Virus record (IMG/VR): IMGVR_UViG_3300047455_000196
Location: 1-31,333 of that record
Direction: 5' to 3' (one strand)
DNA: 31,333 nt
Source: a virus
Made by a program: the position numbers and the translations under genes. Positions 16,845-31,333 of the stretch are shown in pieces (position 1 is the stretch's first letter; each line of letters opens with the position of its first letter). The notes under the pieces were generated by a model that saw nothing but the letters and a program-made list of their open reading frames with translations, did no database searches and was not told the DNA's origin.

Positions 16845-17027
16845 ATGCACGACATTATTGACTTTATTGATGAGCTAAAAGAACTGAAAGCCTTATACAA
16901 TACAGGCGAGCTTCGTAATTTTGACTTCGAACGCATGATTCAAAAGTATGATCGCAAAGTAGATGCCCATGATACTGCAATGGATCAGTGGTTTAAAGAA
17001 TCTTATCATCCCGAATACGAGGTCTAA
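16845..17027 (+). CDS. Small phage protein (60 aa), function unknown
   Basis: 60 aa, starting MHDIIDFIDELKELKALYNT, helical and charged. GGAGG at 16831-16835 fixes the start. Co-transcribed with the gene at 16568. Confidence 0.62.
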   Translation: MHDIIDFIDELKELKALYNTGELRNFDFERMIQKYDRKVDAHDTAMDQWFKESYHPEYEV

Positions 17028-22960: not shown

Positions 22961-22978
22961 GGAAACGAGGGCAAGACG

Positions 22979-23944: not shown

Positions 23945-23966
23945 AACAAAAGCGAGGGCAAACGCA

Positions 23967-24990: not shown

Positions 24991-25007
24991 GGGCATTGGA
25001 GGGCAAC

Positions 25008-25329: not shown

Positions 25330-25345
25330 GGAAAGAGGGCAAAAG

Positions 25346-25626: not shown

Positions 25627-25650
25627 GAAAACAGCTAGAGGGCAAACACA

Positions 25651-26848: not shown

Positions 26849-26859
26849 AGACGATGAAC

Positions 26860-26906
26860 GGACGGCGAAGCAGGTTGTGCCCTCGACCTATAAGACTTCG
26901 TCGTCC
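26860..26906 (+). ncRNA. Candidate anti-Shine-Dalgarno hairpin behind the tRNAs
   Basis: GGACGGCGAAG (26860-26870) pairs over 11 bp (one G-U) with CTTCGTCGTCC (26896-26906). Inside, AGGTTG/CGACCT closes a hexaloop TGCCCT (26878-26883). The loop with its next base is TGCCCTC, the complement of the GAGGGCA site in most early leaders. It starts 12 nt after tRNA-Arg and may be released by tRNA processing. From 26907 to 27009 I see only a weak GACCAC/GTGGTC hairpin (26919-26942) and AT-rich DNA. Confidence 0.5.
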
Positions 26907-27009
26907 AGCATCAAGAAGGACCACACAGAAAACACGGTGGTCAATCCATTATAACATAAAAATTTTGAGATGTCAACCGAAAAGATCCGTTGTTTTTTGA
27001 CACATGGGG

Positions 27010-27263: not shown

Positions 27264-27284
27264 ACAAAGCAAAGAGGGCAAACT

Positions 27285-27628: not shown

Positions 27629-27647
27629 AGCAAATGAGGGCAAACAG

Positions 27648-28065: not shown

Positions 28066-28083
28066 AGCAAAGAGGGCAATACT

Positions 28084-28267: not shown

Positions 28268-28286
28268 GGCAAACGGAGGGCATCCA

Positions 28287-28738: not shown

Positions 28739-28753
28739 GGAAAAGAGGGCAAC

Positions 28754-29014
28754 ATGCAAACATCAATTTACGAAAACACACAGTTCAAAGACCTAGCAGT
28801 CATCGGTCGTCAGATGATGGACATGAGCGAGTATGCCAATTGCAAGGGCATGAAGGACGCAGACTTCAAACTGCTGAACGACATGAGCCATGTGGGCAAC
28901 CTGCTTACCAAATTGGGCATGGCGTTTGGTCCTACGATCAAAGACTTCACACAAGAAGACTTAGATTTAATTGCTCGTTTTATGAAAAAAGAGATTGACA
29001 TTCCCCAGATGTGA
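28754..29014 (+). CDS. Early small protein (86 aa), function unknown
   Basis: 86 aa, starting MQTSIYENTQFKDLAVIGRQ, helical and Met-rich (MMDMSEYANCKGMKDADFKL). The C-terminal KKEIDIPQM is encoded by the -35 box of the next promoter. Single-gene cassette. Confidence 0.7.
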   Translation: MQTSIYENTQFKDLAVIGRQMMDMSEYANCKGMKDADFKLLNDMSHVGNLLTKLGMAFGPTIKDFTQEDLDLIARFMKKEIDIPQM

Positions 29015-29037
29015 TCGTATACTAGTAGAGTAAGTTA
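28995..29037 (+). promoter_or_regulatory. Early-cassette promoter 16 (class B), inside a gene end
   Basis: TTGACA (28995-29000), 17 nt, TATACT (29018-29023), then AGTAGAGTAAGTTA, the same downstream sequence as promoter 19. It drives the AAA+ ATPase gene. The leader has AAGGGCAGAGG. Confidence 0.88.
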
Positions 29038-29057
29038 ACAAAAGGGCAGAGGCGCAA

Positions 29058-30050
29058 ATGACAAACGTTATGATCAAAGAAGGCACGTACAAGATTCGAG
29101 GCAAAGATGTAGACCTCGCAGGTATGGTGTTCCCACTAGTAGAAGAATTTAAAGTAGGCGCCAAGGGTGGCTACGTAACAGTAGATGGCACAGCAATTGC
29201 AGGCTTCCCAGATCGTAAGATCAAGATTGCATGTTCAGGTCCAGATGCGTATACAAGCACAACTGCTACAGCAGTTGCTCGCGAAGAAAGCGATGAAGAG
29301 ATTGTAGAACGTATCCGCGAACGCTTTGACATGTTGAAGGACATGACCAAAGCAGTGCGCAAAGGTGATGTGCGAGCAATGATCGTAAGTGGCCCTCCAG
29401 GTGTAGGCAAGAGCCACGGTGTAGAAGAAGTGCTTGATCGTTATAAGATGATGGAGAGCCTAGGAGCAGGACAGACACACGAAGTGATCAAGGGTGCTAT
29501 GAGTGCAATTGGTCTCTACTGTAAGCTGTACAAGATGGCAGACAAAGGCAAGGTCGTTGTGTTTGATGACTGTGACAGTATCTTTAACGATGAGCTGAGT
29601 CTTAATATTTTGAAAGCTGCACTAGACAGCAAGAAGACACGTACTATCAATTGGAACACTGATAGCTTTAAGCTGCGCAATGAAGGCGTGCCAGACAGCT
29701 TCAAGTTCGAAGCTAGTGCAATCTTCATTACCAACTTGAAGTTCGACAAGGTCAAAGGCAAGTTGCGTGAACACTTGGAAGCACTAGAGTCACGCTGCCA
29801 CTACATGGACTTGACTATTGATAGTGATAAGGACAAGATGCTGCGTATCAAACAAGTAACAGCAGATGGCATGTTAGATTCGTATGCATTGAACGATGAG
29901 ACCAAAGAAGAGATTATGGACTTCATCGACATTAATAAAGAGAAGCTACGAGAACTGAGCTTGCGCACAGTACTCAAAGTAGCCGACCTTGCCAAAGCAT
30001 TCCCCGACAAGTGGGAAGCAATGGCAGAAAACACTGTGATGAAACGTTAA
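29058..30050 (+). CDS. AAA+ family ATPase
   Basis: 330 aa. Walker A GPPGVGKS at 112-119, Walker B VVVFDDCD at 166-173, sensor 1 FITN at 223-226, candidate arginine finger Arg246 (ALESRCHYM), sensor 2 Arg303 (ELSLRTVLK). The N-terminal 75 residues are an unrecognised beta-rich domain and 78-105 a charged helix. Single AAA+ module without protease or helicase parts; related phage ATPases are known, with unclear targets. It should form a ring that remodels a protein or nucleoprotein complex. Its mRNA runs into the four anti-Shine-Dalgarno hairpins downstream. Confidence 0.88.
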   Translation: MTNVMIKEGTYKIRGKDVDLAGMVFPLVEEFKVGAKGGYVTVDGTAIAGFPDRKIKIACSGPDAYTSTTATAVAREESDEEIVERIRERFDMLKDMTKAVRKGDVRAMIVSGPPGVGKSHGVEEVLDRYKMMESLGAGQTHEVIKGAMSAIGLYCKLYKMADKGKVVVFDDCDSIFNDELSLNILKAALDSKKTRTINWNTDSFKLRNEGVPDSFKFEASAIFITNLKFDKVKGKLREHLEALESRCHYMDLTIDSDKDKMLRIKQVTADGMLDSYALNDETKEEIMDFIDINKEKLRELSLRTVLKVADLAKAFPDKWEAMAENTVMKR

Positions 30051-30122
30051 TGCCCTCGACGTTCACAGTGTACGGGATCGCGAGCACCCCTCAATAGCCC
30101 TCACGCTCTGCGACCCAAACTA

Positions 30123-30161
30123 GAGTTAGGATGTGATTGCCCTCCGTCCTAACTCGCTTTT
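30123..30161 (+). terminator. Terminator-like hairpin 1 behind the ATPase gene
   Basis: A perfect 9-bp stem (GAGTTAGGA/TCCTAACTC), 15-nt loop, followed by GCTTTT. It is also the third anti-Shine-Dalgarno hairpin. Confidence 0.65.
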
Positions 30162-30162
30162 G

Positions 30163-30200
30163 AACCCGGCTAGTGTGCCCTCGCTAGTCGGGTTTTTCTT
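30163..30200 (+). terminator. Rho-independent terminator behind the ATPase gene
   Basis: An 11-bp stem (AACCCGGCTAG/CTAGTCGGGTT, one G-U), 10-nt loop, followed by a T-rich tail (TTTTTCTTT from 30193). One of few clear terminators in the early region. Confidence 0.88.
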
Positions 30201-30226
30201 TGTGGCAAAAAAACTACAAAAAGAGG

Positions 30227-30269
30227 TTGACAAACTGGACAGAATCAGATATACTGTATATAACAGTTA
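30227..30269 (+). promoter_or_regulatory. Early-cassette promoter 17 (class A)
   Basis: TTGACA (30227-30232), 17 nt, TATACT (30250-30255), GTATATAACAGTTA. The leader has GAGGGCA. Confidence 0.9.
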
Positions 30270-30287
30270 AGCAATGAGGGCAAAGCA

Positions 30288-30602
30288 ATGCAAAACTTCG
30301 TAATCACAACACAGTTCCTTGAAAACTACGGCGCACACTGCGAAGACGGCAAGTTCGCCAGCGGTAACGCATACTGGAAGATGAAAGGTGGCTCAGACTA
30401 CCTAGTGAGCGGGCTGGACCGCATACAGGATGCAGTTGCGTTCGTTGCAGCCACAGCAATGGAGAACAGCCTCTATGCTAAAGAGTTCCCAGTAGAGTGG
30501 CAGACAGAAGCTGAGTGGACGGCCAAGCTGCCTGAAGATGCAGACTATCGTGAGTTCCTGCTAGAGCAATTAAAAAGAGTTGACCCCAACATTAGGGGTT
30601 GA
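30288..30602 (+). CDS. Conserved phage protein (104 aa), function unknown
   Basis: 104 aa. The opening FVITTQFLENYGAH and YWKMKGGSDYLV are recalled from a family of small phage proteins without known function. The stop codon TGA (30600-30602) lies in the TTGACA box of the next promoter. Confidence 0.74.
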   Translation: MQNFVITTQFLENYGAHCEDGKFASGNAYWKMKGGSDYLVSGLDRIQDAVAFVAATAMENSLYAKEFPVEWQTEAEWTAKLPEDADYREFLLEQLKRVDPNIRG

Positions 30603-30641
30603 CAAACACACACAGTGACCATATACTATATATAACAGTTA
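30599..30641 (+). promoter_or_regulatory. Early-cassette promoter 18 (class A, ATATATAACAG form)
   Basis: TTGACA (30599-30604) overlaps the upstream stop codon; 17 nt; TATACT (30622-30627); ATATATAACAGTTA. The leader has GAGGGCA. Confidence 0.9.
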
Positions 30642-30658
30642 AGCAAAGAGGGCAAACT

Positions 30659-30931
30659 ATGCAAAACCTAAAGAACTTTATCGATGACAACAACCGTTGG
30701 ATCGCATTCTTCAACACAGCACCAATGACATTCCCACTAAGCCAAGTACAGGTTAATGACCTAGCACGTACATTGGACAGCAAACTATCGCCAGAGAACC
30801 TACACTGCGATGGAGAGATCAGTCGTGCAGAAGCAGGTCGCAAGTATCGCTTCCTTAGTGCAGTAGCACAAGAGCTGACTGCATACTGCAACAGCAACGG
30901 CCTAAACGCTCCTACCATCTACGAACTGTAA
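30659..30931 (+). CDS. Early small protein (90 aa), function unknown
   Basis: 90 aa from the ATG at 30659, starting MQNLKNFIDDNNRWIAFFNT, helical (VNDLARTLDSKLSPENLHCD). The frame upstream crosses the promoter. GAGGGCA ribosome-binding site. Confidence 0.7.
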   Translation: MQNLKNFIDDNNRWIAFFNTAPMTFPLSQVQVNDLARTLDSKLSPENLHCDGEISRAEAGRKYRFLSAVAQELTAYCNSNGLNAPTIYEL

Positions 30932-30943
30932 GAGGAACTGACT

Positions 30944-31192
30944 ATGAAACTTGCACAGACTTTCGCACAAGCAATCCAAGATCCCGCCAACTGGTACGAG
31001 CACAACGGCATGGCCACTGTGAACTGGAACTTCGTAGACGCTGACTGTTACATGGCATGTGGGAACGACTATCCAAACGCAGACGCATTCTACGATGAGT
31101 GGAACGCACTATGCGATATCTACTGCGCAACACTAGCGTTCGATCGTATGGAAATGATTGGCAAAATAAAGGTTGACAAGCAAGCGGCTTGA
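30944..31192 (+). CDS. Early small acidic protein (82 aa), function unknown
   Basis: 82 aa, starting MKLAQTFAQAIQDPANWYEH, rich in Trp, Tyr, Cys and Asp (NFVDADCYMACGNDYPNADA). AGAGGA precedes the start; it shares the promoter of the gene at 30659. The C-terminus KVDKQAA is encoded by the next promoter's -35 box and spacer. Confidence 0.7.
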   Translation: MKLAQTFAQAIQDPANWYEHNGMATVNWNFVDADCYMACGNDYPNADAFYDEWNALCDIYCATLAFDRMEMIGKIKVDKQAA

Positions 31193-31215
31193 GGCTATAC
31201 TAGTAGAGTAAGTTA
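31173..31215 (+). promoter_or_regulatory. Early-cassette promoter 19 (class B), inside a gene end
   Basis: TTGACA (31173-31178), 17 nt, TATACT (31196-31201), AGTAGAGTAAGTTA, the same downstream sequence as promoter 16. The leader has GAGGGCA. Confidence 0.88.
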
Positions 31216-31238
31216 AACAAACATAGAGGGCAAACACT

Positions 31239-31333
31239 ATGACAATGACAGTAGCACAAATCCAGCAAGCAATCCGTGAAGCACAAGAGGCAGCATATGA
31301 AGCAGCCGACAACAAGCATCGTACAGTATACGG
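31239..31333 (+). CDS. Early protein, N-terminal part only (runs off the right edge)
   Basis: 31 codons visible, starting MTMTVAQIQQAIREAQEAAY, Ala/Gln/Glu-rich and helical. GAGGGCA ribosome-binding site and class B promoter. Confidence 0.7.
   Translation, partial: MTMTVAQIQQAIREAQEAAYEAADNKHRTVY

Follow-up and report, generated by a model that had tools for sequence, protein, structure and literature searches.

Introduction

Small RNAs that display anti-Shine-Dalgarno (anti-SD) sequences in the loops of hairpins are known from bacteria. In Alphaproteobacteria, the cuckoo RNAs (alpha-r14, CcsR1-4; CIN1 locus) consist of hairpins in a row that share identical anti-SD loops and vary in their stems and in their number, and RNAs of the CcsR type are transcribed downstream of a protein-coding gene and end at a terminator (PMC3927594, PMC10746234, PMC10253847). 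In phages P1 and P7, the c4 RNA prevents a phage mRNA from being translated by acting near the ribosome-binding site (RBS), and the complementary stretches probably lie in loops (PMC12197685). In Staphylococcus aureus, the icaR 3' UTR contains an anti-SD motif, UCCCCUG, that pairs with the SD sequence and blocks translation (PMC3868564). The RegB endoribonuclease of phage T4 acts at the SD sequence to inactivate many early phage mRNAs, including its own (PMC3014915).

Here, we describe hairpin arrays behind an AAA+ ATPase gene in a viral record of 31,333 bases (hereafter the window, meaning the whole stretch that was analyzed) and in its relatives. The phage arrays match the cuckoo and CcsR RNAs in architecture, as they contain several hairpins (one in the relatives that we call clade C), identical anti-SD loops, and variable stems. 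However, they lack two defining features of those RNAs, the CCUCCUCCC loop and the link to a DUF1127 gene (CIN1 locus, CcsR type). The phage loops are instead clade specific, either TGCCCTC or ATTCGCTCC, and the linked gene encodes an AAA+ ATPase. The phage-borne arrays also differ in that their predicted target is one private early regulon, and loop and target co-vary.

Comparisons with the other systems are similarly mixed. Like c4, the arrays would be phage RNAs acting on phage mRNA translation near the RBS through complementary stretches, which in c4 probably lie in loops, but c4 is dedicated to a single target, ant, and serves immunity, whereas the arrays present several equal loops to many early genes with one common site, in separate leaders that each have their own promoter. 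The icaR element also has its anti-SD motif in a 3' UTR, but it is bacterial, has one motif, and mainly targets its own mRNA. RegB is alike in step and timing and belongs to a T4-type phage, but it is a protein that cuts GGAG, whereas the array is an RNA that is predicted to pair. We found no prior description of such phage arrays in the open-access literature that was searched.

Results

The window contains an AAA+ ATPase gene (29058-30050, plus strand; T4 NrdC.10-like, PHROG 1250) with the array in its 3' UTR. The promoter of the ATPase-array transcript (28995-29023, plus strand; TTGACA-17-TATACT) belongs to a class common to other early genes. Positions 30031-30195 on the plus strand fold into four hairpins with a predicted energy of -71.5 kcal/mol, compared with -44.9 ± 4.1 kcal/mol for shuffled sequences (z = -6.5), and none of 200 shuffles was as stable. 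Hairpin 1 (30031-30071) has its 5' arm within the last ATPase codons, and its TGCCCTC loop motif (30051-30057) begins at the base right after the stop codon; this overlap with the gene end is also seen in the window's relatives. In hairpin 2 (30074-30116), the large loop holds both ACCCCTC (30086-30092) and AGCCCTC (30096-30102), and similar double-motif hairpins occur in L009, L013, L015, and L026. Hairpin 3 (30123-30155) has the loop TTGCCCTC with its motif at 30138-30144, and hairpin 4 (30162-30195), with a stem of 14 bp and the loop GTGCCCTC (motif at 30176-30182), is an intrinsic terminator followed by a T run. All four lie on the plus strand, and CCCUC occurs five times across their loops.

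The motif GCCCTC begins at 30052, 30097, 30139, and 30177, once per hairpin and each time in the loop region, and three of the four copies read TGCCCTC. Dinucleotide shuffles of the array (n = 1000) contained a mean of 0.085 copies and never reached four, so the excess over shuffled sequence, a comparison proposed in the first-pass annotation of this DNA, is real. That annotation had described four hairpins with GCCCTC loops, TGCCCTC in three, and both the fold and the motif positions bear this out. Its stem lengths of 5, 8, 9, and 11 bp need correcting to about 9+5, 3+8 (with a 19-nt loop), 11(+2), and 14 bp, and its placement of the array directly behind the ATPase gene is right for the position after the gene, except that hairpin 1 starts inside it. 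In the predicted ensemble, the loop motif bases are mostly unpaired, with the exception of the last one or two motif bases in hairpins 3 and 4.

No plus-strand promoter-like site for the array alone was found between the ATPase promoter (28995) and the promoter of the next gene (30227), and the simplest view is therefore that the array RNA is the ATPase mRNA's 3' UTR or is processed out of that mRNA. Its position behind a gene, its use of that gene's promoter, and the intrinsic terminator at its end (30162-30195) are features of 3'-UTR-derived small RNAs. An array RNA is predicted to be made and to be stable, probably as a processed or terminated 3' UTR, and it may be one molecule with the ATPase mRNA. 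Searches of the window and four relatives against Rfam returned only tRNAs at the gathering score, and sub-threshold matches to the arrays under permissive thresholds were at chance level.

Similar arrays were found in clade A, a set of 30 viral contigs obtained by a search with the window ATPase. Nearly all of these relatives have GCCCTC-loop hairpins behind the ATPase gene, usually two to four per array, with up to five CCCTC copies. We examined 76 distinct clade A sites; the motif was the basis for choosing them, which makes its six bases invariant by design. The positions flanking GCCCTC contain almost no sequence information, yet they are paired: contiguous closing stems of at least 5 bp occur at 55% of the 76 sites, compared with 17% of random anchors, and the 42 hairpins with stems of at least 5 bp have 32 different closing stems. 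Stems were scored by direct analysis, as an earlier loop classifier with 28-nt flanks missed outer stems. Clade A arrays also fold more stably than expected (mean z = -4.4, 16 arrays). Stems thus drift and loops stay fixed, the opposite of the pattern that the first-pass annotation had named as speaking against a functional RNA. The last hairpin, an intrinsic terminator in the window, looks terminator-like in several relatives as well, as would be expected if the hairpins were only terminators or stabilizers of mRNA 3' ends with no regulatory role. We consider this explanation highly improbable, since it does not account for up to five motif copies per array, for conservation in loops rather than stems, or for an exact complement that is confined to early leaders.

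A scan with the exact 16-mer GGATGTGCCCTCGTCC, which is blind to the gene, gave matches near the ATPase that are arrays, and the remaining matches look like chance. A scan for three TGCCCTC loops was set aside, as the matches listed were mostly unrelated-looking repeats. In one relative (L005), the array lies about 700 nt farther from the ATPase, and the extra sequence (L005 2186-2800, relative to L004) is perhaps a mobile insertion.

Early leaders in the window match the loops of the array. GAGGGCA, the exact complement of the TGCCCTC loops, occurs 19 times in the window, compared with 2.2 ± 1.4 expected. It is present in 13 of the 21 promoter-linked leaders past position 17000 (the first-pass estimate was about 12 of 18 plus-strand early leaders), and two further leaders of the 21 have AAGGGCA. 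The predicted target sites, all on the plus strand, are at 22967-22973, 23954-23960, 24999-25005, 25335-25341, 25638-25644, 27274-27280, 27636-27642, 28072-28078, 28276-28282, 28745-28751, 30276-30282 (the leader of the early gene adjoining the array), 30648-30654, and 31226-31232. The 3' end of GAGGGCA lies 2-12 nt ahead of the start codon in early leaders. GAGGGCA is absent from all 19 late genes, which lie on the minus strand and have other sites, often AGGAG-like. The window ATPase's own leader reads AAAAGGGCAGAGGCGC, and GAGGGC is found in most relatives' ATPase leaders. Between 22900 and 31333 on the plus strand, early promoters are nearly identical as far as the leader (TTGACA-17-TATACTGTATATAACAGTTA), forming a uniform promoter-leader cassette.

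Computed duplex energies between loops and leaders were -13.5 kcal/mol for early leaders, -8.0 for late leaders, and -7.3 for shuffled leaders. Pairing with 16S rRNA gave -6.7 on early and -5.3 on late leaders and did not separate the two groups. A loop paired with a leader is predicted to span the SD core and 3-4 more bases beyond the reach of the host 16S rRNA, and this extra pairing would put the RNA ahead of the ribosome by several kcal/mol on early leaders, with a smaller advantage on late leaders. The motif in early leaders is moderately open, with a mean unpaired probability of 0.64.

A separate hairpin with a TGCCCTC loop (26858-26907, plus strand) lies directly behind a cluster of tRNA-Leu/Met/Arg genes. 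This fifth motif hairpin had been missed in the first-pass annotation. Among the 17 clade A loci with tRNA genes, eight, including the window, have a GCCCTC-loop hairpin right behind the tRNAs. The strand opposite this hairpin has a 12/12 consensus promoter, from 26976 to 26948. We considered whether the minus-strand GAGGGCA close to the tRNAs could belong to a decoy RNA with a strong promoter of its own; the plus-strand hairpin is preferred, since hairpins with this loop but other stems recur behind tRNAs.

Loops and leaders differ together in two further groups of relatives. In clades B and C, array loops are ATTCGCTCC, and early leaders have GGAGCGA or GGAGCGAA, the complement of the loop. 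In clade B, where contigs reach 383 kb, each of the 78 newly examined loci has between one and three loops with the form GATTCGCTCC or GAATCGCTCC behind this ATPase gene. Clade C has a single hairpin with CCGATTCGCTCCCGG, located 600-940 nt behind the ATPase and ahead of a terminator-like hairpin, and its fold statistics are weaker (mean z = -2.5). Scans that used the loop sequence alone, without reference to the ATPase gene, returned 107 B-type arrays, 101 of them with the ATPase within 400 nt upstream. The first-pass annotation had suggested a search for compensatory stem changes, and these were found at the closing pairs, with C-G, T-A, G-C, and A-T next to the clade B loop among 87 distinct arrays. 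Several clade B records (L195, L209, L225, and others) also have AAGGCGATCCTC..ATGTAAGAACCC..GGGTTGTAAC..GGATACGGAGAGAG after an early-type promoter, which looks like another structured RNA.

Promoter-linked leaders followed the loop type of their clade. GAGGGCA and GGAGCGA were found in 142 and 0 of 373 leaders in clade A, 0 and 304 of 594 in clade B, and 0 and 96 of 238 in clade C. Thirty relatives that lack an array (judged within 10-20 kb per locus) had one GAGGGCA and no GGAGCGA in 135 leaders. Clade A leaders formed stronger computed duplexes with A loops (-12.6) than with the B loop (-6.3), and clade B leaders formed stronger duplexes with the B loop (-10.6) than with A loops (-7.6). 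Two relatives depart from this match. L008 mostly breaks it, as it retains GCCCTC loops and has GAGGAGC in 13 of 21 leaders, with about six pairs and a bulge remaining. Its early leaders are mostly GAGGAGCAC, which could reflect decay, bulged pairing, or a second leader class. In L025, the match is poor and partial, and GAGGGCA is kept in the ATPase leader only.

In the ATPase tree, clade B is sister to clade A plus the array-less L180 and L183, and clade C plus the array-less L223 and L226 lies outside. With B next to A and C outside, the most likely course is a change of loop and leader on a single shared branch. The simplest reading would be that GGAGCGAA/TTCGCTCC is the older pair, that loop and leader both changed toward the clade A form, and that two lineages lost both. 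The difference between A and B/C would then amount to essentially one joint switch and joint losses, rather than many independent changes. Because loop and leader changed together, we interpret the match as evidence for RNA-RNA pairing, beyond mere resemblance; as is typical of antisense RNAs acting on an RBS, exact complementarity to the target SD is backed by co-variation.

Hairpins that bind proteins also typically combine fixed loops with variable stems, and the leader complementarity could be a by-product of binding by a Csr-like or coat-like regulator. This appears very unlikely, as protein binding does not predict that, with both changed, the loop would still be an exact reverse complement to the leaders, nor that array and leader motif would be absent together. 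Another explanation is autoregulation in cis only, in which loops of the 3' UTR pair with the ATPase's own leader and the motif in other leaders is incidental. The ATPase leader itself usually has GAGGGC or GGAGCG, L025 retains the motif there alone, and icaR of S. aureus is a tested precedent (PMC3868564). However, the block contains dozens of further leaders that have the motif and changed with the loops, several loops per RNA suit several targets, and an additional hairpin lies behind the tRNA genes in 8 of 17 loci. We therefore regard pairing confined to the ATPase mRNA as unlikely and favor pairing with early leaders generally.

Records of 49-383 kb have their motif-bearing leaders mainly in a single block of about 10-20 kb around the array. 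Such clustering about the array is seen for the GAGGGC leaders in the clade A records (49-116 kb). In three large records (223-383 kb), GGAGCGA leaders cluster within roughly 8-12 kb, in a block with the array at its end, and the full loop motif GATTCGCTCCC lies at the array and in at most one other place.

Several features link these records to T4-like phages. The T4 major capsid family Gp23 was found in three of eight records tested, and the closest capsids from cultured phages share about 66-69% identity. NrdC.10 of T4-like phages is a relative of the ATPase. A DNA search with window positions 29000-31333 found no match among cultured phages. Pseudomonas phage Paride and Vibrio phage 2.275.O have ATPase homologues, and visual inspection of the final 1200 bases of the stretches read behind the gene showed no array; in Sinorhizobium phage Phosso, an ATPase homologue was not found. 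A search of bacterial and archaeal genomes with the window ATPase found no relative, and it therefore gives no clue to the host.

Discussion

We think it likely that the 3' portion of the ATPase mRNA serves as, or gives rise to, a multi-loop antisense RNA that keeps ribosomes off early mRNAs, including its own. As the loops are the exact complement of the early RBS and both changed together, the array RNA probably switches early protein synthesis off. In the proposed mechanism, the 3' end of the ATPase transcript would act in trans, with each hairpin displaying a short single-stranded loop complementary to the extended RBS common to early mRNAs, and loop-leader pairing would prevent ribosome binding. 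Once enough array RNA had accumulated, early genes would be turned down. The ATPase would be among them, as the motif is usually in its leader too, and the predicted result is a negative feedback that limits itself and brings the early phase to an end or caps it. Late genes would escape through their ordinary SD sequences. The earlier proposal of a phage multi-loop anti-SD RNA directed at its own early regulon is supported, at the level of sequence comparison, by array conservation, complementarity, and the joint change of loop and leader.

Pairing at the SD sequence could also protect or activate early mRNAs, by shielding them from an SD-cutting nuclease like RegB or by storing them. T4 RegB cleaves early SD sequences at GGAG, and structure inhibits it (PMC3014915); the T4 capsid family Gp23 occurs in several of these records. 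Nevertheless, pairing over the SD sequence would block ribosomes as well, and we judge protection to be quite unlikely as the role of the arrays and favor repression.

More broadly, it seems somewhat probable that large T4-like phages use a private extended SD code on early genes with a matching multi-loop RNA, which together would provide a co-evolving, clade-specific shut-off that spares host and late mRNAs. The natural pairs GAGGGCA/TGCCCTC and GGAGCGAA/TTCGCTCC offer a ready-made orthogonal swap, and the two loop-leader pairs are possible parts for controlling many genes with one RNA. To our knowledge, how large T4-like phages end the early phase is understood mainly for T4, through promoter shut-off and RegB. 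If our reading is true, an RNA that recognizes the common early RBS would be a different answer to the problem of ending the early phase.
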